From: a virus | Length of the DNA stretch: 26,425 bases | Reading direction: 5' to 3' (one strand) | IMG/VR virus record: IMGVR_UViG_3300028590_000078 | Location: 1-26,425 of that record | In this document: in pieces, positions 1 to 18,283 of the stretch | How positions within the stretch are numbered: the stretch's first letter is position 1 | Layout: each line of letters starts with the position of its first letter | The notes under the pieces: model-generated | Databases searched by the model: none | What the model was told of the DNA's origin: nothing | Seen by the model: the letters and a program-made list of their open reading frames with translations, nothing else | Position numbers and translations under genes: made by a program

Positions 1-32
1 TCGTTCGAGCCAAATTCATATGTGTTTGTCAT
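1..32 (-). CDS. Start of an unidentified gene running off the left edge
   Basis: Only the first ten codons are visible (MTNTYEFGSN), so no function can be assigned. The start is supported by an ATGA overlap with the TGA stop of the upstream 1026-residue tail gene (ATG at 32-30, TGA at 31-29). A purine-rich ribosome-binding site (GGGAGAGGT, read on the minus strand) sits three bases upstream. An in-frame alternative is not seen; the ATG at 19-17 is in another frame. By position it could be another tail-tip protein or the first lysis gene, since no endolysin has appeared yet in the window. That is inference only. Confidence 0.5.
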   Translation of the reverse strand, partial: MTNTYEFGSN

Positions 33-3000
33 TGTACCTCTCCCAGGTCGGCATTCCAGGTGTTTGGATTGAGCCAGGCATCCCAGGGTTTGGAACCCAG
101 AGAAGCGGTGGGCATGTTGCTTCCTTGGATCGCTGTCACTGTCAACACGCCGACACCTGACAACACACCTACGGCAGACGGTGCAGACGACGTTACAGCG
201 CCGAGCGTACCTTCGCTTGACAGTGTGCCCGCAGTGAATCGTGCGCCCGTTGCAGACGCCGACAGAGTGCCAGTGCCACTGAGCTGACCAGCGATTACTT
301 GGCCCGAACCAACAGTGCCTGTGAGCGTACCCGAACCCGAGAGTGACACCGCCCGCACGAAGTGGGGCTTGGCTGTGGCTGACAGTGTGCCAACACCCGA
401 CAGGCCCACGAGCACATCTTGTGAAGAGTACCCTGTCAATGTGCCCGAGCCACTCAGCCCAGTCGTGATTGTCAGCCGTGGAGTAGTCGTCCCGGACAGC
501 AGTGTGCCCGAACCGCTTAGCGGCCCAGTGATCGCAACAGCCTTGGTAGCAGACCCAGACAATGTGCCCGAGCCAGACAGGCCTGCAGTGATCGACGTGG
601 ACTTGCTAGCCGAACCCGACAGAGTGCCTGAGCCAGAGAGGTTGCCCGTTCGTGAGTAGTTCGAGCCGGACAATCCCTGCAGTGTACCCGACCCAGACAG
701 CGCGCCAGTTGTTGATGCTCCGGGCGTGCGAGTCGAGGTAAGCGTACCGGACCCGGACAGGTTGGCTGTGACCGCAAAGTTGGGTACTCCCACACCAGAC
801 AGGGTACCTGTTCCACTCAGTGTACCTGTTTTGGTGAACCCAACGCTGCGCGTCGAAGTCAACGTGCCCGAGCCGGAGAGTGCGCCGGATGTTGAAACTG
901 CAACAGTCCGGAGAGATGACAGTGTGCCTGATCCTGTGAGTGATCCAGCGGCTGTGATCGCAGGCGTTTGTGTGGCCGACAGTGTGCCAGAGCCAGACAA
1001 GTTTCCTGTACGTGCGTAGCCTGGGATAGATGTCCCAGTCAGTGTACCCGACCCGCTCAGAGTACCAGCAGCCGCAAAGCCAACGACACGAGTCGAGGAC
1101 AGCGTGCCAGAACCTGACAGTGCCGCACTCGCGTTACGATGCGCTGTGCCGGTGCCCGAGAGTGTACCCGAGCCAGACAGTGATCCAGTCTTGGCGAACC
1201 CAACAGATCGAGTTGAAGACAGAGTACCCGAGCCAGACAGATTGCCGGTGGCCGCAAAGCCAGTGTCATACGTCTTGGTCAGCGTGACCCGCTGGGTGTT
1301 GTCCGAGCTGTAGCCTGTGTACACCAGGCTGATCTGCGTGCCTGTGTCAGTGACCACACATCGACCGTACTGCTGAACCACGTTGGTACCCGATGCAGGG
1401 TATGGTCCAACGTCGTAGGGTCCACCCTTGATCGACGCGTTCTGGTACAGCGGAGCGGCTTGGAACACTGGGCATCCACCTGGTGAGCCTGAGCCATCTT
1501 CAGCTGCGAGCGCGTGCATGTCACCGGCAAGGATGATGATGTTCTTGTTGGATGCATCGTAGTACGCAGCCATCTCATCGCGTTCCGTGATGTACCCAGC
1601 CCAGCTGTCATCGCCTGCAGTCGACGTGATGATCCACGGATCAGCTTGGATGATGACGATGACAGGCTCAGTCGCGTTGTCGATCTGCGACTTCAGCCAT
1701 GTCTTCTGTGTGCTGCCCAGCGCAGTCTTGGAACCATTGTCCGTGTTCGCTGAAGGCGACTTGTACGAACGGTTGTCAGTCTGGATGAACCTGACCCGAC
1801 CCCAGACAAACGAGTAGTAGTTAGCGGGCATTGGGAAGAGTTCAGTCTTCGCCGTGTTCCAGTTAGTCCACGCCGTAGCGTCGTCACCCGCAGTAGAGTT
1901 GTTGTTCATACCATCGTGGTCCGACGGAGTATAGGTCATGTTCATCGTCGAGAACACAGCAGCATGGTTCGTTGCCGTGATCTTGGCATTCATCTTGTCT
2001 CGGAAGTTTGCTGTGCCTGTACCGGATGCATCAGCGTAGTACATGTCACCGAGATGGAAGAACAGATCGTCACCACGTGTTGCGATGGCGCCCATGGAAT
2101 CGGAGTCCGTGTTGTTAGCACAGGAAGCAAAGTCGAACGCAAAGTTCGCCGCACCCGTGGGTGCAGTCTTGGCTCGACCAACAGTGCCAGTGTCCAGCGA
2201 CGTACCCGCAGCCGAGTCTGTCATTTCAACACGGTAGTAGTACCGGGTGTTCGCCGTCAGACCTGTAGCCGTCAGCGTGGCATTGCCATCAGAGTCGGGG
2301 GTGACAGCGCCACCGTAGACGACACCTGCAGTGACACCCGAGTCAGTGCCCATCTTGAGACGTACCGACGTAGCGTTGGTAGTCTTGACCTTGATGCGTA
2401 CGGAAGTCGAAGTGTTGGTGTCCGGGATACCCACGACTCGCTGAACAAGGACAGGAGTTGCCGGGCCAGTTGAGCCGGGACGAAGTGCAACGGTAACGCC
2501 CGTCCACTGAAGAGTTGTGCCCGAGTTAGTCTTGGACCAGGTGCGTGTGCCCGTAGCGCCAGCAGTAGCACGTTCCTCATAGAAAGCCCGAGTGTAACGG
2601 CCGGTGCCTGTTGTTTCCGAGTAGCTGGTTGTTCCCGAAAGAACGTTGATCTGGTTAGTCAGCGAGGAGCCGTTCATAGCCAGAACGTGCAGGAGCATCG
2701 CCCCGTTAGTCACGGTCGTAATCGTGGGCATAACGAAAGTCGACTGGACCGGTACGGCGTTGCTCACGAAAGTCACGTCAATGGGTGTGGTCGTATCAAC
2801 ACCAGACCATCGAGACATGCTGCCGCTAAGACGGCCTGCTGCAACGCTTGACGGTACGCTGACAGAACCCGACTCACTGCCCGTTGCAATCTTGTACCAC
2901 ACCGACATGGAGGGTGCAGTGTTGTTAGCAGCCCGAGAGCCACAGCTCACCCAGCCACTAAGCGTTGTGTTCGGAACGGTCGTGCCCGAGTTGGTTACGG

Positions 3001-3109
3001 TCAGGAACAACAGTTCGTTAGCTTGAATCCCCGATGGATAAGGGACAACGGCTGTAGTCGACGAGGCGTTTTCATACAGCGTGGGTGTACCCTCAAGAAC
3101 AATAGCCAT
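29..3109 (-). CDS. Minor tail protein: PhoD-like metallophosphoesterase with C-terminal LSGSGTL repeats (1026 aa)
   Basis: Probable tail-tip protein with an enzymatic domain facing the host surface. Residues 1-210 form a beta-rich tail domain also present in the 1283-residue paralogue upstream. Residues ~220-310 resemble the Fn3-like N-terminal domain of PhoD enzymes, and ~320-605 the PhoD catalytic domain. Visible motifs are FASC (327-330), HLGDMYYAD (352-360), SDHDGMNN (396-403), TDNRSYKS (444-451) and AGDMHA (528-533). C330, D355 and Y358 match the Cys, Asp and Tyr that I recall binding ferric iron in Bacillus PhoD. PhoD enzymes cleave phosphodiesters and phosphomonoesters, including wall teichoic acid. 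From residue 623 to ~1000 there are 19 LSGSGTL-type repeats, then a Trp-rich tail (WDAWLNPNTWN). ATG follows AAGGAG. The active-site motifs look intact; the substrate is unknown. Confidence 0.82.
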   Translation of the reverse strand: MAIVLEGTPTLYENASSTTAVVPYPSGIQANELLFLTVTNSGTTVPNTTLSGWVSCGSRAANNTAPSMSVWYKIATGSESGSVSVPSSVAAGRLSGSMSRWSGVDTTTPIDVTFVSNAVPVQSTFVMPTITTVTNGAMLLHVLAMNGSSLTNQINVLSGTTSYSETTGTGRYTRAFYEERATAGATGTRTWSKTNSGTTLQWTGVTVALRPGSTGPATPVLVQRVVGIPDTNTSTSVRIKVKTTNATSVRLKMGTDSGVTAGVVYGGAVTPDSDGNATLTATGLTANTRYYYRVEMTDSAAGTSLDTGTVGRAKTAPTGAANFAFDFASCANNTDSDSMGAIATRGDDLFFHLGDMYYADASGTGTANFRDKMNAKITATNHAAVFSTMNMTYTPSDHDGMNNNSTAGDDATAWTNWNTAKTELFPMPANYYSFVWGRVRFIQTDNRSYKSPSANTDNGSKTALGSTQKTWLKSQIDNATEPVIVIIQADPWIITSTAGDDSWAGYITERDEMAAYYDASNKNIIILAGDMHALAAEDGSGSPGGCPVFQAAPLYQNASIKGGPYDVGPYPASGTNVVQQYGRCVVTDTGTQISLVYTGYSSDNTQRVTLTKTYDTGFAATGNLSGSGTLSSTRSVGFAKTGSLSGSGTLSGTGTAHRNASAALSGSGTLSSTRVVGFAAAGTLSGSGTLTGTSIPGYARTGNLSGSGTLSATQTPAITAAGSLTGSGTLSSLRTVAVSTSGALSGSGTLTSTRSVGFTKTGTLSGTGTLSGVGVPNFAVTANLSGSGTLTSTRTPGASTTGALSGSGTLQGLSGSNYSRTGNLSGSGTLSGSASKSTSITAGLSGSGTLSGSATKAVAITGPLSGSGTLLSGTTTPRLTITTGLSGSGTLTGYSSQDVLVGLSGVGTLSATAKPHFVRAVSLSGSGTLTGTVGSGQVIAGQLSGTGTLSASATGARFTAGTLSSEGTLGAVTSSAPSAVGVLSGVGVLTVTAIQGSNMPTASLGSKPWDAWLNPNTWNADLGEVQ
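119..1243 (-). repeat. Nineteen tandem ~60-bp coding repeats (LSGSGTL units)
   Basis: In-frame tandem repeats at the 3' end of the 1026-residue tail gene. Each unit is about 20 codons: a near-invariant xLSGSGTL core followed by ~12 variable residues, many of type SSTRSVGFAKTG. I count 19 units. Seventeen of the first eighteen are 18 or 20 residues long and one is 21. The first twelve are the most regular; the last two are degraded (LSSEGTL, LSGVGVL). At DNA level the core appears on the plus strand as variants of CAGTGTGCCCGAGCC. The regular period with a fixed core suggests a repetitive beta-structured shaft or spacer, and DNA like this can change copy number by slippage or recombination. 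Confidence 0.9.
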
Positions 3110-4610: not shown

Positions 4611-7600
4611 TTATGCCCGAGTCCAGACAGCGACCCAGTCGATGTAGACGTGGCCCTGGGCACTCGTGGGCGGTGGTGTGGCAGACAGGTTCGTTTCGGT
4701 TTGCAACTTCCAGTACATCGGGTTGGTCGGAATGGCAGCCGAGTCCGTGGTCGTGTAGACCGTGTCGTCAAGAATGAACTTGAGCGACGTGGGTGTCCAC
4801 TCGATCACAGCCGTATGCCACTGCGCCATGTTGACGTTGGTGTTAACGATCCACTGGTTCGTGTTCGGCGAGCCGAAGACGTTGTGTGAATAGCCCTGGA
4901 TGTTGTTGCCGAGCCCAGCTTCAGGGAAGTCAATCTCACCCTGGTTCCAGTTCTCACTGGTGGGCCAAAGCAGCCATGCAATCTTGAAGCCCTGAACGGT
5001 ATCCGCCTTGAACCGCACAGCGTAGCGCCCGTAAAGCTGGCCCCACGTTCCGGTGTCAGGAATCGGATTCGCTACCCATGGACGGCCTGTAGCAGGATCC
5101 GTATACACATGGATATCGAGCATCGAGTTGTGCACGGTCACTGTCTTCGTAGAGTCGTAGATACCCTCGTTGGCAAGTGGCCTGCCGTAAGCACGGCTGG
5201 TGTCATGCTGACCATCAGCTGCTGACCAGATCGGTCCGTACACTGCGGGGAACTGACCAAGCGCTGCATTCTCGGTGAAGTCCTCACTCAGGACAAGGTT
5301 CCAGCCGGGAAGGTTGGTGCTCGGTACAGCGACGCCACTGGGGTTGCCCCCAGGTGCAGGAACTGTTGCATCCTCCCAGAAGCGCACGTAGTCGACCCGT
5401 ACCTTCGAAGCGTCGCCAACAAGGCTGTTGCCTACAGAGGCACCAATGTTGAGCAGCAGGTAATGGGGTGAACCATTGTCTTCCGGAATGTAGGAGTACA
5501 CCAGCTGACCGTCGTAGTACACCTTGTTCTGTCCGGGTGCACGATGCAGCCCGTAGGTGTGCCAGCCACCACCCCAGTTGCCCGGGATAGTACCCGAGCC
5601 CTTCGACGCGTGAACGCCGTTAGCCGAGTAGTGGTGGTTACTGGTCATGGAGTTGACACCATCCCAGCCGGTGACTTCAGCAATGTCGTTCTCGCCTGTC
5701 CCGGGCCATGCGTGACCAGTAGTCCACCATGCGGGCCAGTTGTACACAGTCGCCCCGTTGCCCGGGAAGAAGATGCGAGCCTCGACAAAGCCGTAGTTGA
5801 ACTCGAAGCCTGTGTGCCCAGCCACACCATCCCGCGGGTTGGTTGACATGAGAGCACCAGTCGAAGAGTTCGACAGCCTGAGCGTCAGCTCACCATTCTC
5901 GATTGCCACGTTCGAAGACACAGTCGCCACGTTGTTCATCTGCCCACCCTCGACAAACCAGTACGGCGTCCAGAGCGTGCGGTTCAACGTGTTGAAGTCG
6001 TCAGCCCATTTCAGTGACCAGTTGCCCGTAGCACCCACCGGCTGGTAGCCCGAGGGCGGCGGCGGAGGCGGAGGTGGTTCTTCCGTGGGCGGAGGCGTTA
6101 CGACTGGCGTCAGCACAGGATGGATGACCACGGGGGTCATGCCATTGTCTGACGTTGCAGTCTGGTTGCCCGCCCTCACAATCGAGTGGCGAGTAATGCC
6201 TTCACCGGACTTGACACCATCGGCGTAGTTCGCTACCACCCGGAACACCAGGTCGGCATCTGCTTCCAGATACGGTGTGGTGTAGGAGCAGCTTACTCCG
6301 CCAGTGCCACTCGGCGTGAGCGTCACAGTCGGGCCAGATACCTGGTCCCATGTGTAGCTCAGCACAGCACCTTCAGCGTTAGCATCCATCTGAACGAGCA
6401 AGCCCGCCTCGAGGTTGCTTACGTTGGGCCCGGGATCAGCAAACCCAGTCGCGGTGATTGCCGTTCGGTGCACGCGTACCCCAGCAATGCCCGAGGACGT
6501 GGCCACACCAACCTGCACTCGGTGAGTGCGTACGGTAGTGCCACTTGCCTGAACACCCAGAGTCATCGAGTGGGCACGCACGGTGGTACCCGATACCGGG
6601 GCGGGAGTCACAGCGTAGGTCTTGGTCATCGAGATTCGTTCGGTGTTGTCCGCAGAGTAACCCTTGAACACTACCTGGATCTGATTACCAGTGTCGTTGA
6701 TTGTGACTCGGCCATACTGCTGAACCGTGGGGCCAGCTGCCGGGTAAGGGCCTACGTCCCAGGGACCACCCTTGTGGCTTGCTGCCTGGTTGAACGGAGC
6801 AGCCTGGAATACAGGCACACCGCCGGGAGAACCCGAACCATCCTCTGCAGCAAGAGCATGCATGTCACCACCGAGCATGATGATCTTTTTGCCCGATGCC
6901 GAGAAGTGGCTTGCAAGTTCATTGCGTTCCGTAAGGAAGCCACCCCATGCATCATCGCCAGCACTTGTTCCTGTGATCCAGGGAGTATCCTGACCGATGA
7001 TGGCGATGTTGTCTGCAGGCAGTGCAGTGATCTGATCCTTGAGCCACTGCTTCTGGGTGGAACCCAGGGCAGTCTTCGAGGAGTTGTCAGTGTTGCCCGG
7101 GTTCGACTTGTAGGAACGAGTGTCGAGCATGATGAACCGGACACGGCCCCAGTTGAACGCAAAGTAGTTCTGAGGGTTCGGGAACAGTTCGGATCGTGCA
7201 ATGTTCCAGTTGTTCCATGCAGTCGGATCGGAGCCAGCAGCGCCATCGTTGTTCATGCCGTCATGGTCTGAAGGCAGGATGTGCATGTTGGTCGTGGCAA
7301 ACAGATTGACCTGTGAGGTCATTGCCGCGTTCATCCGGTTACGGAAGTTGTCCAGTCCGGTGCCCGATCCATCATGGTAATACAAGTCACCAAGGTGGAA
7401 GGACAGATCATCATTCCGGTTTGCCATCGCTGTGGAAGCAGCTGTGTGGTTACCGGAGTTACAAGATGCGAACGTGAACGAGAACGATGCCGGACCGTTG
7501 GGCGCAGTCTTCAAACGCCCGATGGGCGTAAGGTTGTCTGCGAACTCAGACCCGCTGCTGTTGGTCATCATCACCCGGTAGTAGTACCGAGTCGACGGTG

Positions 7601-8462
7601 ACAGTCCCGAGATGGTCAGTCGAGCGTCGCCACGAGTGCTGGGTGTAGCCGCAGGGCCGAACACGACACCAGTCGTACCAGATGCGTCAGTCGAACAGCG
7701 GAGCCGTACAGACACTGCATTGTTGACCTTGACGTTCACCTGCCCGGTCGTTGCCGGATCGACTGCAGGGATGCCTACAACCCTCTGGACTAGCCCGGGC
7801 GTAACACCCGACGGCGGGGGCGTTACCGTTGTATCGCTGGGCCGAAGACCCACGGTAATGCTGGTCCACTGAAGCGCAGTCGTTGAAGTCTGCGACCAGG
7901 TCTGCGTACCAGTACTGCCGGCCACACCCTGGTTCTCGACGAACACTGACAGCTTGCGCCCCGTAGTACCTGAGCCGCTAACCTTGGTCAAACCCGAGGG
8001 CGTGTTGATATCCGAGGTGGTTGAGGCGTTGAGTGCGACGACATGGAAGACTGTCACGTTGTTGGTGATGGTATCCATGGACGGCGAGGTGTAACCAACA
8101 GCAATGCCCGAGCCAGATTTGACCGGGGTTACATCGAGGTAAGTTCCCGCCTGTCCCGTCCAGCGCTGCATCAGACCAGTGACACGGCCAGCAGTTCCAG
8201 ACGTAGCGAAGGTTACTGACCCGGACTCAGAGCCCGTGGCAATCTTCGCCCAGACCGCGATACCGGGACCGCCGCCTTCACCATCCTTGCTGTCAATAAG
8301 AGTCCAGCCCCCAGGGTTCGTAACAGGGGCGGGTGACTGGGTATGGGCAACCTGTGCAAGGAGAAGTTCGCCAGCGACAATTCCTGAGGGATACGGAATC
8401 ACTGCAGAAGTAGCGCTGGCACTCTCATATACAGATGGCGTACCCTGTACGACTACGGCCAT
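4611..8462 (-). CDS. Giant minor tail protein: PhoD-like phosphoesterase, PKD-like domain and two GH16 glycosidases (1283 aa)
   Basis: Probable multi-enzyme tail-tip protein. Order: N-terminal tail domain (1-208); PhoD Fn3-like domain (~222-318); PhoD catalytic domain (~325-612) with FASC (331-334), HLGDLYYHD (356-364), SDHDGMNN (398-405), LDTRSYKS (446-453) and GGDMHA (531-536); three short VRxH repeats (~621-673); PKD-like domain (~675-765); polyproline linker (~789-803); GH16 domain 1 (~812-1031) with catalytic ENDIAE (E924, D926, E929); GH16 domain 2 (~1054-1281) with EIDFPE (E1176, D1178, E1181). GH16 enzymes cleave beta-glucans or galactans by a retaining mechanism; PhoD cleaves phosphate esters such as teichoic acid. 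All catalytic motifs look intact. ATG at 8462 follows AAGGA. The first ~620 residues are paralogous to the 1026-residue protein downstream. Substrates are not known. Confidence 0.86.
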   Translation of the reverse strand: MAVVVQGTPSVYESASATSAVIPYPSGIVAGELLLAQVAHTQSPAPVTNPGGWTLIDSKDGEGGGPGIAVWAKIATGSESGSVTFATSGTAGRVTGLMQRWTGQAGTYLDVTPVKSGSGIAVGYTSPSMDTITNNVTVFHVVALNASTTSDINTPSGLTKVSGSGTTGRKLSVFVENQGVAGSTGTQTWSQTSTTALQWTSITVGLRPSDTTVTPPPSGVTPGLVQRVVGIPAVDPATTGQVNVKVNNAVSVRLRCSTDASGTTGVVFGPAATPSTRGDARLTISGLSPSTRYYYRVMMTNSSGSEFADNLTPIGRLKTAPNGPASFSFTFASCNSGNHTAASTAMANRNDDLSFHLGDLYYHDGSGTGLDNFRNRMNAAMTSQVNLFATTNMHILPSDHDGMNNDGAAGSDPTAWNNWNIARSELFPNPQNYFAFNWGRVRFIMLDTRSYKSNPGNTDNSSKTALGSTQKQWLKDQITALPADNIAIIGQDTPWITGTSAGDDAWGGFLTERNELASHFSASGKKIIMLGGDMHALAAEDGSGSPGGVPVFQAAPFNQAASHKGGPWDVGPYPAAGPTVQQYGRVTINDTGNQIQVVFKGYSADNTERISMTKTYAVTPAPVSGTTVRAHSMTLGVQASGTTVRTHRVQVGVATSSGIAGVRVHRTAITATGFADPGPNVSNLEAGLLVQMDANAEGAVLSYTWDQVSGPTVTLTPSGTGGVSCSYTTPYLEADADLVFRVVANYADGVKSGEGITRHSIVRAGNQTATSDNGMTPVVIHPVLTPVVTPPPTEEPPPPPPPPSGYQPVGATGNWSLKWADDFNTLNRTLWTPYWFVEGGQMNNVATVSSNVAIENGELTLRLSNSSTGALMSTNPRDGVAGHTGFEFNYGFVEARIFFPGNGATVYNWPAWWTTGHAWPGTGENDIAEVTGWDGVNSMTSNHHYSANGVHASKGSGTIPGNWGGGWHTYGLHRAPGQNKVYYDGQLVYSYIPEDNGSPHYLLLNIGASVGNSLVGDASKVRVDYVRFWEDATVPAPGGNPSGVAVPSTNLPGWNLVLSEDFTENAALGQFPAVYGPIWSAADGQHDTSRAYGRPLANEGIYDSTKTVTVHNSMLDIHVYTDPATGRPWVANPIPDTGTWGQLYGRYAVRFKADTVQGFKIAWLLWPTSENWNQGEIDFPEAGLGNNIQGYSHNVFGSPNTNQWIVNTNVNMAQWHTAVIEWTPTSLKFILDDTVYTTTDSAAIPTNPMYWKLQTETNLSATPPPTSAQGHVYIDWVAVWTRA

Positions 8463-11300: not shown

Positions 11301-12305
11301 TTACCACCCAATCGCAATCCAGTTAATACGGTGAGAAGCATGTGGTGTACGGCCGTATTGCAATGTGCCAACACCATCATCGGATGCCGGTTGGCTAAGA
11401 ACTGCGTAAACCCAAGAGGTTTTGCTTCCATAGCCATCGTCACCGAATACCCCAGAACCACCACCCACGTTACCCGCGGAGGCAAACATCATCGAGCCAC
11501 CAGTGGCCCAGTCATCACCGTTGAACCCAGCAACATACAGCACGCCGTTGGGGAAAGGCCTGGGCCAATTGACCCGGCAATAGCCGGACTGATCAGCAAT
11601 ACCAACCTGAGTACCGCACTGCATGATGAAGGGGTGGCCGCTTTCTGCAAGGGACTTCACACTCATTCCACCGGGAGTAAGTGCATTGGCCGCACTGTAC
11701 AAGCCAATCGAGCCGACTGCAGCTGTGCGTTCCCAGGTGACGCTGTTGGTCCCATTCGTCTTGCGAATCCAGGTGTCTCCGTTGATGGTGAGGTGTGTGC
11801 CGACCTGGTCCAGGTAACCCATCACTAGATCGCTAACCGCGAAGACACCCCCGTTATGTGCCCACACCCGGAGGTCCACGATTTCCTGGACGGCGTTCTG
11901 ACCCGAGCGCACTCGGGCAAGAGCGATGGGCTGGTCAGCGAGCACACCCGCATTGGTGTTGCGGGAAGGCAATGTCCTGTTCGGTCCACCGGTGACAACC
12001 GTGTAGATTGATGTGCTGGCACCCGGTGTGGCATTCCAGGTACGTCGGAGAACGATCATGTCCCAGCGGTCACCCGAGGGAACAGAAGTCAGGTTTACAG
12101 TCGTGTCATTTTCGAAGACATCCAAGATGCCGTCGCCAATCACCGTGCCCGCCTTGATGGTGACAGCTCGGGTACCAGCCCCGATTATCGCCTTGGCGTC
12201 ATTGGTGCCAGCCACAGAATACTGGGCGGCAGCTACGTTTGGCATCCAGTCAGCCAGCTGTGCAGCATTCACTGATCCTGGGTAACCAATATGCTGGTCA
12301 GCCAT
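11301..12305 (-). CDS. Minor tail/fibre protein with gp53-like C-terminal end (334 aa)
   Basis: The N-terminal ~150 residues match a module widespread in actinophage tail tips. It contains an entry segment, a VTIKAGTVIGDGILDVFEN stretch, DRWDMIVLRRTWN (~79-91), and ends in LARVRSGQNAVQEIVDLRVW. Residues ~155-225 include a short repeat-free linker region. The last ~110 residues contain WPRPFPNGVLYVAGFNGDDW and finish RINWIAIGW, the pattern of the phage tail-fibre gp53-like C-terminal domain that forms a receptor-binding knob. ATG at 12305 overlaps the TAA of the Tal gene (TAATG). It is a good candidate for a non-enzymatic receptor-binding fibre. Confidence 0.65.
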   Translation of the reverse strand: MADQHIGYPGSVNAAQLADWMPNVAAAQYSVAGTNDAKAIIGAGTRAVTIKAGTVIGDGILDVFENDTTVNLTSVPSGDRWDMIVLRRTWNATPGASTSIYTVVTGGPNRTLPSRNTNAGVLADQPIALARVRSGQNAVQEIVDLRVWAHNGGVFAVSDLVMGYLDQVGTHLTINGDTWIRKTNGTNSVTWERTAAVGSIGLYSAANALTPGGMSVKSLAESGHPFIMQCGTQVGIADQSGYCRVNWPRPFPNGVLYVAGFNGDDWATGGSMMFASAGNVGGGSGVFGDDGYGSKTSWVYAVLSQPASDDGVGTLQYGRTPHASHRINWIAIGW

Positions 12306-13426
12306 TATTGACTCGCTTTCAGTTTGTTCAAAGAACCAGACAGTGTAGACAGTGCCTCAACCACCTGGGAGGTCGGATCAGTTTTCTTTCCCACGATACC
12401 TTTGAAACGCAGGCCTTTTTCAGAGTCGTACTGAAACTCAATCTCACGGAGAATGTCGGTAACCTCAACTCGGCCTTCGCCAACCTTCGCGGTAACGATC
12501 TGGCCAACCTTGAGTCCACCAGGACCACCGAACCGGAAGTTCTTCGTTTCACCAAGAGTAATCTCGATGGACGATTTACCTGCACCTTCGAAGAGTGTTT
12601 CGTCAGCGCGTTCCGTGTAGGTGTTCAGATCGTCAGCATCCCGGGCATCTCGGAAGGCTTCGATCCTGTCACCCCACAAAGCTTCACGCGTAGCATCCAC
12701 CTGGTCGATGAAGGTACGAGCCGTGCCCTGGTTCTCACCACCAACAACCACGTAGGTTACATCGGGTGCCTCAACACGAGCTTTCCACTTACGCACGATG
12801 CGCGAGGATTCGGACAAGACGTTCGGATAAACGCCCGGCTCATATACATCCACGGTCAGACCCGCGGGTGAGGCAGTGACCGTCACCCCGAGACCCATTG
12901 ACTCAAGCAGTGGGAACATCTCGTTGTAGATCTTTGCCATACGAGCCTGAGCGTGAACAGTGCTTCCCCGTCCTTGGTCCGTTGCAATGATGATGGGTTC
13001 CACACCACGGTCACCGATGTTCAGGTTCACGATGGTCTTGAACACCGTTTCTGCTGCGCCAACCTGTTCATACCGGTAAGCCAATGCTTGGTTCGCCATT
13101 GATTCGCCCGGACGTTGGAAGATCAGGAAGTTTCGCAGGATGCGGAAGTTATCCTCAACCTCGAACGTGAAATTGCCCGACACCCCGGGACCCTCGGCGC
13201 CCCATGCGCGGATGGGACCTTCGATGAAAGTCTCACCCCGCAACTGGCAACGCACGCGAGTCCCGGGAGTACACATCTGCTCAATGCGTTTGTGTGTGGC
13301 CTTGACAGTGAACGACAAGTCTGAGATGTTGTCGAACCGTTTAGTTCCTTCGAGTGAGACAAACGCACCAACGGGCGCCTGCCATACCCTGTTCTTGTTA
13401 TACAGGTCGAGTCGGAACAGTGACAT
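12305..13426 (-). CDS. Tail-associated (Tal-like) minor tail protein, ReqiPepy6 gp37-like (373 aa)
   Basis: Second gene after the tape measure, directly following Dit, which is the usual place of the Tal or baseplate-hub protein. The sequence has the features of the Siphovirus ReqiPepy6 gp37-like family: an N-terminal hub region with LSFTVKATHKRIEQM and GTRVRCQLRGETFIEGPIRAW (~38-75), a FEVEDNFRILRNFLIF segment (~89-104), a central YVVVGGENQGTART region, and a C-terminal barrel (GGLKVGQIVTAKVGEGRVEV). No lysozyme or peptidase motif is seen, so it is probably structural. TAATG overlaps join it to both neighbours. Confidence 0.82.
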   Translation of the reverse strand: MSLFRLDLYNKNRVWQAPVGAFVSLEGTKRFDNISDLSFTVKATHKRIEQMCTPGTRVRCQLRGETFIEGPIRAWGAEGPGVSGNFTFEVEDNFRILRNFLIFQRPGESMANQALAYRYEQVGAAETVFKTIVNLNIGDRGVEPIIIATDQGRGSTVHAQARMAKIYNEMFPLLESMGLGVTVTASPAGLTVDVYEPGVYPNVLSESSRIVRKWKARVEAPDVTYVVVGGENQGTARTFIDQVDATREALWGDRIEAFRDARDADDLNTYTERADETLFEGAGKSSIEITLGETKNFRFGGPGGLKVGQIVTAKVGEGRVEVTDILREIEFQYDSEKGLRFKGIVGKKTDPTSQVVEALSTLSGSLNKLKASQ

Positions 13427-14343
13427 TAGACACTCCGGAAATAGAGAGGGGTGAAGAAAGCCTGGATTGAACCAGTACCATCCAGTGTTAGCGACAGCGT
13501 GGTATCCTCACCCGGAGGCAGCGGAGCAAACTCGAACGAACCCAGGGAAGCCATGATATCCACACCATCACGCGTGGCTGTCAGGTTCCTCGGGTCGGTG
13601 TCGATGACAACAGTCTGACCGGCAGAGGTATTACCCACTGTCGCGGTCAAGCCATTCAAACCTACGGATGCAGTGTTGAACGGTCCCTTCAGTTCCCACC
13701 TCAAGAATGCTTCAACATCCCCCGGGTTGCTCATGGTTGCGTTGGTGATATCCGCAGCTGACGCAATGTAGAACGGCGGACCTCCGGTGCCTCCGAAGAA
13801 GTCGTAATCACTTTGGGGATACCAGATGGGTGATTGTGTTTCGCCTTCCCAGAAGGGCTGCTCACACATCCCAGTGATACCGTAGATGGCCCAGCCAAGT
13901 TTGACCGGGTCTCGCGAGTACACGGAGGTATCATCACTCTTGAACCGTACGGTGATGCTGTACCGTTCATTGGTGGGCAGAACAACTTCCCATCGCAGCG
14001 TTTTGCCTGGATGGAAGATCCTCCAGAAATCCTTCTTCCTTTGGATCCATTCTTCACTGCTGTCTTCGAAGATGCCAATGACCCAGTGAACATCTCGACC
14101 GGAGGCTCGCCAGCCTTCCCATTCAAAGCCGTGGACGACTGGCGAGTCAAAGGTGTACTGCTCAATGATTGGCATGCCCATGCCCTCGATGCCTTCCGGC
14201 ATGAGGAACACACCGTCACGCCCATCGGTCACATCCCACACCGAGCCATCCCAGCCATAGAAGATGTGCTTGATGCGACGCCACGGTGTGTAGATGGCTG
14301 GAGCGACCGGCGGCCGTAGTTGTGTACCTCTCAAGTAAGCCAT
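13426..14343 (-). CDS. Distal tail protein (Dit-like), 305 aa
   Basis: The first gene after the tape measure encodes the distal tail protein that closes the tube and organises the tip. The N-terminal part shows YGWDGSVWDVTDG (~29-41) and a GFEWEGWRASGRDVHW segment typical of actinophage Dit proteins. Next come WRIFHPGKTLRWEV (~127-140) and, in the middle, WAIYGITGMCEQPFWEGE, a hallmark stretch before the C-terminal beta-sandwich (~200-305). The gene overlaps the tape measure stop and the Tal start by TAATG on both sides. Confidence 0.82.
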   Translation of the reverse strand: MAYLRGTQLRPPVAPAIYTPWRRIKHIFYGWDGSVWDVTDGRDGVFLMPEGIEGMGMPIIEQYTFDSPVVHGFEWEGWRASGRDVHWVIGIFEDSSEEWIQRKKDFWRIFHPGKTLRWEVVLPTNERYSITVRFKSDDTSVYSRDPVKLGWAIYGITGMCEQPFWEGETQSPIWYPQSDYDFFGGTGGPPFYIASAADITNATMSNPGDVEAFLRWELKGPFNTASVGLNGLTATVGNTSAGQTVVIDTDPRNLTATRDGVDIMASLGSFEFAPLPPGEDTTLSLTLDGTGSIQAFFTPLYFRSV

Positions 14344-17300
14344 TACTTACCTACCTTACCAATTTGAGCTACGAGGTTTGCCCGACGAGCTTTCTTGTCG
14401 AAATCTTCAGCGACACGTTCCGGCGTAGCACCATAGTAGTCGCCTTCGATGTTCACGAGCGCGCCCTTGGGCGTCGAGTATGCACCGCTCACGCCAGACG
14501 CTGCAGACGCGAATGAGGCGGTACCGTCGAACACCTGAGCATGTGCAACAGCATCGCTTGCCGTTCGCCTCAGAGCGTCTGCACGTTCCGTCATGCCCCG
14601 ACCGAAGTCATCAATCAACTTACGGCCTGAGTGGATCGTGTAACCCTTGCCCGAGAACGGACCGTACTTAGCAGGCGACTGGGGGAATGCACCCTTGACT
14701 GCGGCGACAACCGTAAGAGCTGCAGCAACAGCCGCGCCGATTGCCGAAGCAATACCGCGAGCGAACGCACCGATCAGAACAGCACCAGCGGTGAACAGCT
14801 CGAAAGAACGAGCCATCAGTGCACCAGCGATCTGTCCCGGGATACCACCCGCAGTGATCAGCAGCGAACTGATACCCGCAACAAGCCCGGTAGCAACTCG
14901 ACGCATGAACCCGGGAACAGCAGTGACGATTGCTTCCCAGCCACGAGCGAAGTTCTGCCCGAGTTGAGCCATGCCGATCACAACTTGCATCAGCATGCCC
15001 GGGATACCAGCGGCAAGGCTAGTGGCGATGTTCCTCATGCCCATAGCCGCGTTGAGTGCAACGGTACGCCAGAAGTTGCCCCATTGAGTATGCGCTTGGA
15101 TGAAGAATCCAGTGAACGAAGCAATCATGCCCGGGATACTCGAGTTGAGTGTGCCGGTCACGAGAGTCATAGCAATCGAGGCAGGATTCGGCAGGCCCGA
15201 CCAGAAGGTTTGCCACCTGGGCGTTTCCCCCTGGATAAGACCCAGCGCCGCGATGATCAGTGCGATGCCCGTGGACACAGTGCCCGGGATGGGACTGAAG
15301 CCCTGTGCAACAGAACCGTTCAGACCAGCCCAGAAGGTGTTCCAACGTTCGACCACACCGAACAGCGAGTCAAAGGCAAGAACCAGTGCAGGCAAACCCT
15401 TCCCAGGGTCGAGCAGGGCTTGGATGGTTCCAATGAAATCGCCCACGCCCTGTGCCGCATTGACTACGCCCTCGATCTTGGCCCAGAGTCCGCCGAGCAC
15501 TTCACCCAGGATCCTGAAGAACGCAGGAACCTCAGGATGATCAATGGCGAACTGAACGAGCGTGAAGAACCCACCCTTGGTATCGCCGAGGCTAAGCTGT
15601 GCGAATGCCGTGGGGATCTTGCCCATCAGCTCGACCATGTCGCCGAGCCATTCAAGGGAATCCCGGATGAACGGGGTAGCTTCCTTGAGTGCAATGCCGA
15701 GTTCCCGGAAGAACACAACGAGCACGGGTGAAGCAGCCTTGACAAGATCGACAATCAGCGGAGCAAGTTCAGCAATGAGCGGAATCAGCGGAGGCAGAAC
15801 TTCCTTGACGAACGACAGCAGCACAGGCCCAAGTTCCTTGAGCACGTCGCGCAGCAAGCCGGTCAGTACAGGGATCAACGGCCTGAGAGCTTCGAACAGC
15901 TCAGTGAAGATCGGAGCCAGCTGCTTGGCAGCCTCAGTGAGTACGGGCCCCATCTGTGACAGCAGCAGACCCAGTGCCGAAGCGAGCGTGCCGATGATCT
16001 GACCCAGAGGAGCCATCGCAGGCTTCAGGTCAGTCATAAACGTCAGGAAGCTTGAGAAGAAGTTCTTCAAGCCCGACTGCAGCGTGGGATCAGAAACGAG
16101 CAGCCCGATGTTCTCGAGCAGCTGTCCCAGGATCTTGCCCACCGAGTCGAAGATCGTAGCCAGTGTGGGCGCGAATTTACCCAGGCCCACACCAAGGCGG
16201 GCGAGCCCGTCAACGAGACCATCCATGAGACGATGCGCACCACCGAAGATGGTTGCGAACGTTACCTGGAAGTTCGAGGTGTTCATGGTGTCAGCGAGCT
16301 TGCGCAGACCGTCAGCCAGTCCAGCGAACGTTGAACCACCTGCAGCCTGAGCAGCACGACCCAGCGAGGCAAACACACGGCCCGTCTGGAACAGCACACG
16401 ACCAAGGTCCTTGAATGCTGTGATGCCTGTTTCAGCCCATTCCTTGAGCCGGCCATCGGCAGCAGCAGCCTGGATGAAGTTGTTAAACTGGTCGCTGAGC
16501 TTCACCAGCCATTCAGACAGACGGGGCAGGTACTCGGAACCGAAGGAACCCAGTGTGGTGAATGCAGCGACGAGAGGCTTCATAGCCCTGCCGGCAATTT
16601 CAATCGACTTGGTGAGGTTGCCCATCATAAAGGCAAGCTTGTCGGGTGTGATGTTCACCTGAAGCTCGCGAGACATTTCACCGAACAGCCGGCCCCATGC
16701 ACGAGCAAGATCCCCGAGGGTGTCACGCATCGTTGGCAGCAGGTTGTTTGTCAGGTCACGGATGGGCTGTGCAGCTTCCGTCCAGAACTCGTCACTGATA
16801 ATGTTCTGCAGGTTTGAGAACGCAGGGCCCAGATCAGCGAGGACTTTCTTTGTGTCCTTGAATGCCGCAATCAGCACACCCACGTTGATCGCCGACGCGG
16901 CGAGCAGTGCAGGAAGCAGTACGGAGATTTGCCCGAGCTGTGCGAACGACACACCCAGGGTTGACAGGTTGGAGATGAGCGCAAGCACAGCACCACTCAA
17001 GCCCAGGATGCCTGAAGAAACCAGGCCCAGCTTGGGGGCATTCTTGTCAAGATTCTTGACTGCATCCCAGAAGCTGTCGAAGACGTTACCCAGCATACGG
17101 GCACCCGTCAGAGCGGCGAGAGTGCTTGCAGCAGCCGCGACCGACGCGGCGTTCACACGAACGAAAATGGGAACTGTACGGGCCCTTGTAAGGACTGCCA
17201 GTTGCTGGCGTGCTCGAAGCGCATCAAGGTTGGCGTGAATGTTCGGATCAATGTCTTCGATCCGCTTCTTCAGATCGTGGAGCTGATCATTGGTTACATA

Positions 17301-17504
17301 CGGTTCAACCTTGATGCGTACTTCGAGGTCGCGCAGTTGTTCTTTTAGTTTACGGACTGACTCTCGCGTCACCGCGAGCTCAGCAGGAATGGTTGCCTTC
17401 ATAGTCTTCTCGATACGCTCGAGAGACAACTTCAGATCCTCGCGGAAACGCGATGAGTCAGGCAGGACTCGGATTGATACCCGGCCTGCGGATTTTGTAG
17501 CCAA
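14343..17504 (-). CDS. Tape measure protein (1053 aa)
   Basis: Sets tail length and is injected or released at infection. Residues ~20-100 are charged and helical (KLKEQLRDLEVRIK). A hydrophobic, probably membrane-seeking stretch spans ~160-216. The bulk is Ala/Leu/Gly-rich helix with repeated Trp turns (WNTFWAGL, WQTFWSGL, WGNFWRTV). Near residue 945 it has SPAKYGPFSGKGYTIHSG, a C-terminal signature common in actinophage tape measures. At about 1.5 angstrom per residue, 1053 residues predict a tail near 158 nm. The start is TTG at 17504 with AGGAGG five bases upstream, overlapping the chaperone stop. No lysozyme or peptidase domain is obvious. Confidence 0.93.
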   Translation of the reverse strand: MATKSAGRVSIRVLPDSSRFREDLKLSLERIEKTMKATIPAELAVTRESVRKLKEQLRDLEVRIKVEPYVTNDQLHDLKKRIEDIDPNIHANLDALRARQQLAVLTRARTVPIFVRVNAASVAAAASTLAALTGARMLGNVFDSFWDAVKNLDKNAPKLGLVSSGILGLSGAVLALISNLSTLGVSFAQLGQISVLLPALLAASAINVGVLIAAFKDTKKVLADLGPAFSNLQNIISDEFWTEAAQPIRDLTNNLLPTMRDTLGDLARAWGRLFGEMSRELQVNITPDKLAFMMGNLTKSIEIAGRAMKPLVAAFTTLGSFGSEYLPRLSEWLVKLSDQFNNFIQAAAADGRLKEWAETGITAFKDLGRVLFQTGRVFASLGRAAQAAGGSTFAGLADGLRKLADTMNTSNFQVTFATIFGGAHRLMDGLVDGLARLGVGLGKFAPTLATIFDSVGKILGQLLENIGLLVSDPTLQSGLKNFFSSFLTFMTDLKPAMAPLGQIIGTLASALGLLLSQMGPVLTEAAKQLAPIFTELFEALRPLIPVLTGLLRDVLKELGPVLLSFVKEVLPPLIPLIAELAPLIVDLVKAASPVLVVFFRELGIALKEATPFIRDSLEWLGDMVELMGKIPTAFAQLSLGDTKGGFFTLVQFAIDHPEVPAFFRILGEVLGGLWAKIEGVVNAAQGVGDFIGTIQALLDPGKGLPALVLAFDSLFGVVERWNTFWAGLNGSVAQGFSPIPGTVSTGIALIIAALGLIQGETPRWQTFWSGLPNPASIAMTLVTGTLNSSIPGMIASFTGFFIQAHTQWGNFWRTVALNAAMGMRNIATSLAAGIPGMLMQVVIGMAQLGQNFARGWEAIVTAVPGFMRRVATGLVAGISSLLITAGGIPGQIAGALMARSFELFTAGAVLIGAFARGIASAIGAAVAAALTVVAAVKGAFPQSPAKYGPFSGKGYTIHSGRKLIDDFGRGMTERADALRRTASDAVAHAQVFDGTASFASAASGVSGAYSTPKGALVNIEGDYYGATPERVAEDFDKKARRANLVAQIGKVGK

Positions 17505-17509
17505 GGCAA

Positions 17510-17515
17510 CCTCCT
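17510..17515 (-). promoter_or_regulatory. Perfect Shine-Dalgarno site for the tape measure TTG start
   Basis: AGGAGG on the minus strand, five bases upstream of TTG at 17504-17502. The TAG stop of the frameshifted chaperone (17516-17514) overlaps this site, so ribosomes terminating there lie directly over the tape measure initiation site. Confidence 0.75.
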
Positions 17516-17960
17516 AGGATGCTAGACCAGAGCCGAACAGATTCTTCAGTGTTGTACCAAAGTCAGCGAGTGTTTCAGTGGGCTTGTTGGGCGTTTGGCC
17601 CGGACGTGGATAAGGAGTAACTTCAGGCACCTTATTGTTCGGACTATTCGCACCCACAAAGTAAGCCGAGTGTTGGTTCACTGCGTCAATCAGATCAGCC
17701 ATGACGTAAGTGTTAGCGTCCCATCCCAGGTATTGTGAGTAGTCTTTGAGCTCCGGACCACCTAGGGACTTCGCACGCCACAACGATTTGGGTTCGTGTG
17801 GGAGGCGATCCAGCAGAGCGTACACCCGACGAATGGGAACCCGACCATCAATTGCATCCCATATGTCAAAGTCATACAGGGCAAGAAGATCGGATTCCCA
17901 GTCGGGGTTCAGCTCTAGCTGTCGTCGGAGCTCTCGTCTTCCCCCAGGACAGAGGTCCAA
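17514..17960 (-). CDS. Tail assembly chaperone, gpT-like part made by -1 frameshift
   Basis: This reading frame overlaps the end of the first chaperone in the -1 frame and lacks a credible start of its own (TTG at the frame's edge, no ribosome-binding site). It is best read as the downstream part of a gpG-T fusion. From the shift site it continues GRRELRRQLELNPDW, then LLALYDFDIWDAIDGRVPIRRVYALLDRLP and YVMADLIDAVNQHSAYF, a pattern usual for actinophage second chaperones. A -1 slip at GGGGGAA would give 114 residues from the first frame plus 142 here, 256 in total. The product assists tape measure and tail tube assembly and is not in the virion. It is followed immediately by the tape measure. 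Confidence 0.85.
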   Translation of the reverse strand: MDLCPGGRRELRRQLELNPDWESDLLALYDFDIWDAIDGRVPIRRVYALLDRLPHEPKSLWRAKSLGGPELKDYSQYLGWDANTYVMADLIDAVNQHSAYFVGANSPNNKVPEVTPYPRPGQTPNKPTETLADFGTTLKNLFGSGLAS

Positions 17961-18283
17961 GCAATGGCGAGTTCAGCCATACGCTGCATCGCATCCCTGC
18001 CCGAACAGAACTTCGTGAACTCTTTTTCGTCCTTGGCCCAGGGGAGCATCGCCTTGCCGATCTTACCGAGAATCGGAATCGCCTCGGTGTCCGACAGGGA
18101 TACCTCCTCGCCTTCCTTGGCGTCACCCATGAGTTCGTAGACGAGTGCCAGGAGCGGGGCCTGATCCCACACCGGTACTTCGTCAATCGACTTCATCAGG
18201 TTGAAGCCCGGGGTGTCTTCCGGACGGACGACCTTTTCAGCCTTCGGCTTACGATCCTGGGGGGTTTTACGTGAAGTAGCCAT
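17915..18283 (-). CDS. Tail assembly chaperone, gpG-like (122 aa)
   Basis: First gene after the major tail protein and just before the tape measure, the standard place of the gpG-like chaperone. The protein begins with a basic stretch (MATSRKTPQDRKPKAEK), has a helical core (APLLALVYELMGDAKEG; FCSGRDAMQRMAELAIAW) and an acidic end (GEDESSDDS). The last codons overlap the gpT frame and contain the probable slip site. ATG at 18283 follows AGAAAGG. Length and composition are normal for the family. It is expected to be made in excess over the frameshifted product. Confidence 0.85.
   Translation of the reverse strand: MATSRKTPQDRKPKAEKVVRPEDTPGFNLMKSIDEVPVWDQAPLLALVYELMGDAKEGEEVSLSDTEAIPILGKIGKAMLPWAKDEKEFTKFCSGRDAMQRMAELAIAWTSVLGEDESSDDS
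17939..17945 (-). promoter_or_regulatory. Probable -1 ribosomal frameshift site (GGGGGAA)
   Basis: On the minus strand GGGGGAA lies in phase G-GGG-GAA within the last nine codons of the gpG frame. A one-base backward slip at the GGG codon continues into the gpT frame as GGA-AGA-CGA. The frame offset between the two genes was checked by position arithmetic and is exactly -1. It is the only homopolymeric run in the short overlap that fits. Confidence 0.75.

Follow-up and report, generated by a model that had tools for sequence, protein, structure and literature searches.

PhoD of B. subtilis (2yeq) is a secreted phosphatase with an aspartate, Asp265, in its metal site. PhoD proteins also occur in phages. 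The 'hydrolases' of Streptomyces phages Samisti12 and Jay2Jay, grouped in phrog_13624, consist of an N-terminal domain and a PhoD domain over ~620 residues, and the Samisti12 protein, 651 aa in length, has no GH16 domain. PhoD-type genes of Samisti12 and of Microbacterium phage Hortus1 lie outside the tail-tip cluster. The phosphodiesterase of Thermobifida phage P1312 (1096 aa) is a PhoD protein encoded two genes after the tape measure, with a weak carbohydrate-binding domain further along (below the gathering threshold) and no GH16. A gene annotated as glycosyl/glycerophosphate transferase is located a few genes past it (L139:9996-10991), and its product has no Pfam match at 0.01. A tail-encoded phosphodiesterase of an unrelated enzyme family, the GDPD of the enterococcal phage tail module, has been proposed to act on teichoic acid; three architectures have been described, with no glycosidase in the same protein (PMC10194240). 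A literature search for PhoD tail proteins that act on teichoic acid found no relevant paper. GH16 domains are represented by the endo-1,3-beta-glucanases and laminarinases, for example 4bq1. They also occur at the C-terminus of viral tail proteins behind a Pro-rich linker and with no phosphoesterase domain, as in the DUF5047 protein of locus L065; loci L142 and L150 look alike.

The window analysed here is the whole virus record IMGVR_UViG_3300028590_000078, 26,425 bases in length. A DNA search with the whole window against annotated phages gave no match. The phage is a siphovirus that carries a PhoD domain and two GH16 domains in one tail-cluster protein, termed P0001. The earlier note had read this combination from the sequence, and Pfam, the gene context and the fold match to 2yeq all bear it out. 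The 1283-residue open reading frame that it had proposed is real, starting with ATG and preceded by an AAGGA that resembles a ribosome-binding site. The features of P0001, its paralogue P0002 and the upstream tail genes are as follows.

29..3109, minus strand: P0002, 1026 aa, N-terminal and PhoD domains followed by LSGSGTL repeats, without GH16 (comparison with P0001)
4611..8462, minus strand: P0001, 1283 aa, N-terminal domain, PhoD, PKD-like domain, GH16a and GH16b (ATG start, Pfam)
4614..5312, minus strand: GH16b, residues 1051-1283 (Pfam, best stretch 1142-1277), motif EIDFPE at 1176-1181 intact
5367..6026, minus strand: GH16a, laminarinase-like, residues 813-1032 (Pfam), motif ENDIAE at 924-929 intact
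6027..6137, minus strand: proline-rich hinge, residues 776-812, with PPPPPPPP at 796-803
6138..6602, minus strand: linker and PKD-like domain, residues 621-775 (K319L-like PKD, weak, below gathering)
6603..7496, minus strand: PhoD-like metallophosphoesterase, residues 323-620 (Pfam PF09423, hmmsearch to 2yeq, fold match)
7248..7271, minus strand: metal-ligand loop S398-D-H-D-G-M-N-N405 (alignment to 2yeq, column table)
7497..7799, minus strand: Fn3-like PhoD_N domain, residues 222-322 (2.7e-5, below gathering; inside the 2yeq structural match, which begins at residue 220)
7833..8462, minus strand: N-terminal beta domain, residues 1-210, common to P0002, probable tail adaptor
12305-13426, minus strand: Gp37-like minor tail protein (PHROGs and Pfam)
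13426-14343, minus strand: Dit-like protein (PHROGs and Pfam)
14343-17504, minus strand: tape measure protein (PHROGs and Pfam)

The minus strand of the window encodes the terminase end, portal, protease, scaffold, major capsid, connector and tail genes. It also holds the tape measure, Dit-like and Gp37-like genes, all upstream of P0001 and in the same orientation, further genes without assignment, P0001, a group of small proteins and P0002. The small proteins separate the two paralogues, and two of them appear membrane-like by eye. P0001 is encoded in the tail module, the setting of tail-associated depolymerases and virion-associated lysins, and its start has no evident signal peptide. The order tape measure, Dit, Gp37-like, further genes and PhoD protein recurs in the related phage L003, and from Dit on in the sister phage L002, with an endolysin downstream. 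Before the tape measure gene, two open reading frames (17915-18283 and 17514-17960; window 17514-18283) overlap in different frames; the latter matches a tail assembly chaperone, and the pair resembles a programmed frameshift pair.

Residues 13-621 of P0001 fall in phrog_13624 'hydrolase' with an E-value of 6.5e-76, and the PhoD part shares 33-35% protein identity with the Samisti12 and Jay2Jay proteins. The AlphaFold model of residues 1-640, computed from 22 aligned sequences, has a pLDDT of 86.9, with residues 1-210 mostly at 80-94. Comparison with a viral fold library gave matches with a target TM of 0.7-0.8 over ~200 residues to small uncharacterised phage proteins and to minor tail proteins. 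These matches to the model are taken to belong to the N-terminal domain, which is a probable tail adaptor. Between the PhoD and GH16 parts, the polyproline hinge proposed earlier is present, whereas the PKD-like domain proposed with it corresponds to a weak Pfam match (3.2e-4, 21.1 bits against a cut-off of 27). In the sister phage L002 a PDPGGG linker takes the place of the polyproline hinge.

The PhoD domain is identified by PF09423 (3.1e-20, 73 bits against a gathering threshold of 27) and by an hmmsearch to 2yeq (9.9e-22). The best solved match of the 1-640 model is B. subtilis PhoD, with a Z score of 34.7 and an RMSD of 2.5 over 371 residues; purple acid phosphatases score lower (Z ~31). 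C334, D359, Y362 and D533 of P0001 correspond to the iron ligands and bridging aspartate C180, D207, Y210 and D436 of the B. subtilis enzyme, and the calcium-ligand equivalents D266, N271 and N272 are kept as D399, N404 and N405. Ser398 occupies the position of Asp265, so the calcium-ligand set is incomplete. Residues D359, Y362, D399, H400, D401, D447, D533 and H535 are conserved throughout, or almost throughout, 22 phage PhoD sequences with 28-65% identity to P0001. The column of Asp265 holds serine throughout the close clade (glycine in L005), and several distant phage relatives keep the aspartate. Because Ser398 replaces Asp265, the modelled P0001 domain is classed as a PhoD fold whose metal site is a variant, rather than as a canonical PhoD enzyme. 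Phosphoesterase activity of the domain is nonetheless predicted as likely.

The GH16 family profile PF00722 matches P0001 in two separate stretches (1.2e-20, 74.1 bits against a gathering threshold of 22), and on sequence grounds the C-terminal half is assigned to GH16. GH16a has a profile match of 2.6e-13 and aligns across the catalytic motif with the endo-1,3-beta-glucanase 4bq1 (phmmer, 7.7e-13), from which P0001 differs in bearing a tandem pair of GH16 domains on a phage protein. GH16b matches the NCBIfam ExoK model at 2.4e-7, far below the equivalog cut-off, and its similarity to laminarinase is also weak; used alone as a viral query, it gave nothing confirmed. The nucleophile, helper and acid-base motif ExDxxE is present in both copies. 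The residues named in the earlier note (C334, D359, Y362, GGDMHA at 531-536, E924/D926/E929 and E1176/D1178/E1181) were all located where it had placed them. Its statement that the key residues are intact holds for both GH16 motifs and fails for the PhoD site, where Ser398 stands at the Asp265 position. Of the checks it had suggested, profile placement confirmed both PhoD and GH16 above gathering, well beyond chance expectation. Structure prediction did so for the PhoD half, again well beyond chance; the model of residues 640-1283 has a pLDDT of 41 from an alignment of 3 rows, too low for use. Its premise that tail enzymes usually carry a single activity was too strong in view of the enterococcal tail GDPD (PMC10194240) and of a 1689-aa viral protein (L066:2133-7199) with four carbohydrate-active domains in one chain, namely GH46, alginate lyase, GH16 (just below gathering) and chondroitinase B.

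P0001 and P0002 share 54% identity over their common N-terminal and PhoD domains. The sister phage L002 has an equivalent pair of PhoD paralogues, the second at L002:14074-16890, and the PhoD tree places the P0001/P0002 duplication before the split of the window phage and L002. L002 also has the same fusion architecture as P0001, at 56% identity overall. The identity is distributed unevenly over the domains, with 71% for PhoD, 60% for GH16a and 30% for GH16b. In GH16a of L002 the sequence GLANIAE stands where P0001 has GENDIAE, such that the nucleophile Glu and the Asp are lost; the ExDxxE motif is kept in all 15 other GH16 domains compared, L002 GH16a being the sole exception. GH16b of L002 belongs to a different subfamily from that of P0001 and shares 48% identity with a free GH16 of L002 itself (L002:13237-14028). 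This free GH16 has an apparent signal peptide, unlike P0001, and is encoded next to the fusion, with the PhoD paralogues of L002 on either side. Phage L018 carries a GH16 domain between PhoD and the repeats, whereas the related L017 has none there. The insertion in the PhoD tail protein of L018 is independent of the P0001/L002 fusion, and on the PhoD tree GH16 must have changed at least twice separately. All three PhoD-GH16 fusions retain an intact motif in their second or sole GH16. The domain identities, the comparison of L018 with L017 and the PhoD tree thus reveal PhoD as the conserved core, with GH16 modules gained, replaced, and inactivated or lost independently. A fixed two-step enzyme machine is disfavoured by the sister phage, because its GH16a is without the nucleophile and its GH16b is of another subfamily while PhoD is kept at 71%.

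The frequency of the pairing was surveyed over 25 IMG/VR loci with an L002-type GH16. A recognised phosphoesterase occurs in the same protein at 4 of them, with three phosphoesterase types: L002 (PhoD), L062 (PF04185), and L063 and L064 (metallophosphoesterase). The best solved relatives of the L063/L064 metallophosphoesterase are purple acid phosphatases, at a weak E-value of 0.001. The L062 protein (L062:4047-6014) combines an apparent signal peptide, a PF04185 phosphoesterase and GH16; the other two (L063:1872-4091 and L064:4383-6632) each combine an apparent signal peptide, CBM96, GH16 and a purple-acid-phosphatase-like domain. The apparent N-terminal signal peptides indicate that these three proteins may be secreted rather than virion proteins. 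The L064 fusion gene stands among phage tail, connector and endolysin genes. Most of the other loci encode a tail-like protein with a C-terminal GH16 and no phosphoesterase (most judged by eye), and the partner seen most often resembles a tail protein of the DUF5047 type (by Pfam for L065, by eye for the others). In IMG/VR, GH16 recurs as a module of viral tail proteins, and a phosphoesterase partner is a recurring minority. The proposal that GH16 is specifically tied to phosphoesterases is weakened by the count of four loci.

Among the records listed from the annotated phage collection, none matched more than ~31% of P0001, always over the PhoD part. In annotated phages, the GH16 domains alone had matches in just two Curtobacterium phages and a single faecal phage contig. 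The combination of PhoD with a double GH16 is without a match in the annotated phage records searched; both domain types are known in other phages. The only strong match of a genome scan with the N-terminal/PhoD region was to a 26-kb Segeticoccus rhizosphaerae contig, and no genome with a GH16 fusion was found. Among actinobacterial genomes, the relatives of GH16b and those of the L002-type GH16 had no evident fused phosphoesterase in the frames inspected by eye. That the window phage infects an actinobacterium is suggested by the single Segeticoccus match and by the annotated relatives, whose hosts are mostly actinobacterial.

We consider it fairly probable that P0001 is a virion-associated protein of the tail tip that degrades the host surface, its PhoD domain acting on a phosphate-containing wall polymer and its GH16 domains on a beta-glycan. 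A role away from the tail, as an enzyme that is released at lysis, frees phosphate, or degrades phospholipid or exopolysaccharide, appears quite unlikely. A phospholipase D and enzymes that scavenge phosphate do belong to the PhoD family (PMC4223295), some phages encode PhoD-type genes outside the tail cluster, L002 encodes its free GH16 with a signal peptide next to the fusion, and small membrane-type proteins lie between P0001 and P0002. Nevertheless, P0001 lacks an evident signal peptide, its gene position and the recurrent order after the Dit and Gp37-like genes point to the tail, and the fold of its N-terminal domain resembles that of proteins annotated as minor tail.

Two further alternatives concern catalysis. 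The PhoD domain could be catalytically dead or altered by the change of Asp265 to Ser and serve as a structural scaffold, as might be expected from the abolished activity of B. subtilis PhoD D265A (PMC4223295) and from the fixation of Ser, or Gly in L005, across the whole close clade. This is distinctly improbable, as the other ligands are kept across most of the 22 sequences, which is unexpected for a scaffold, and the aspartate retained in several distant phage relatives indicates that the change may be a variant of the metal site and not a loss. The GH16 domains could instead function mainly in binding a surface glycan, with catalysis optional and only PhoD required to work. The 60% identity retained by L002 GH16a despite its lost catalytic residues, set against the motif kept in all 15 other domains, is compatible with such a role, as is the paralogue P0002 without any GH16. 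We regard it as unlikely, since both motifs of P0001 and the second or only GH16 of the three fusions are intact.

For the surface-degrading protein favoured here, we infer virion location, catalysis, substrates and order of action. The N-terminal domain (1-210) would anchor P0001 to the tail, and the Fn3 and PhoD domains (220-620) would act as a unit that cleaves phosphodiester linkages of a wall polymer that contains phosphate, of the teichoic-acid type. The PKD-like spacer and the proline hinge would carry the two GH16 modules, which would cleave a beta-linked glycan of the surface or at least hold on to it. The action of PhoD on teichoic acid is a proposal by analogy, drawn from the function suggested for PhoD of B. 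subtilis (PMC4223295) and from the enterococcal tail GDPD (PMC10194240). Separate acquisition, replacement and inactivation of the GH16 modules on a PhoD core that stays is what parts that set host range would be expected to show. A more speculative and rather doubtful extension is that actinobacterial phages repeatedly pair a phosphoesterase and GH16 in one chain against a single mixed polymer with alternating phosphodiester and glycosidic backbone bonds, at least three phosphoesterase types (PhoD, PF04185 and purple-acid-phosphatase-like) having been recruited beside GH16.

If P0001 is active, a single phage protein would cut bonds of two different chemistries in the host envelope. Its close relatives exhibit gain, swap and inactivation of sugar-cutting modules on a fixed phosphoesterase core. 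With these changes visible, and with dual cutting if the protein is active, the P0001 family is a tractable model for host-range change in tail enzymes and might help to dissect wall polymers of actinobacteria about which little is known.
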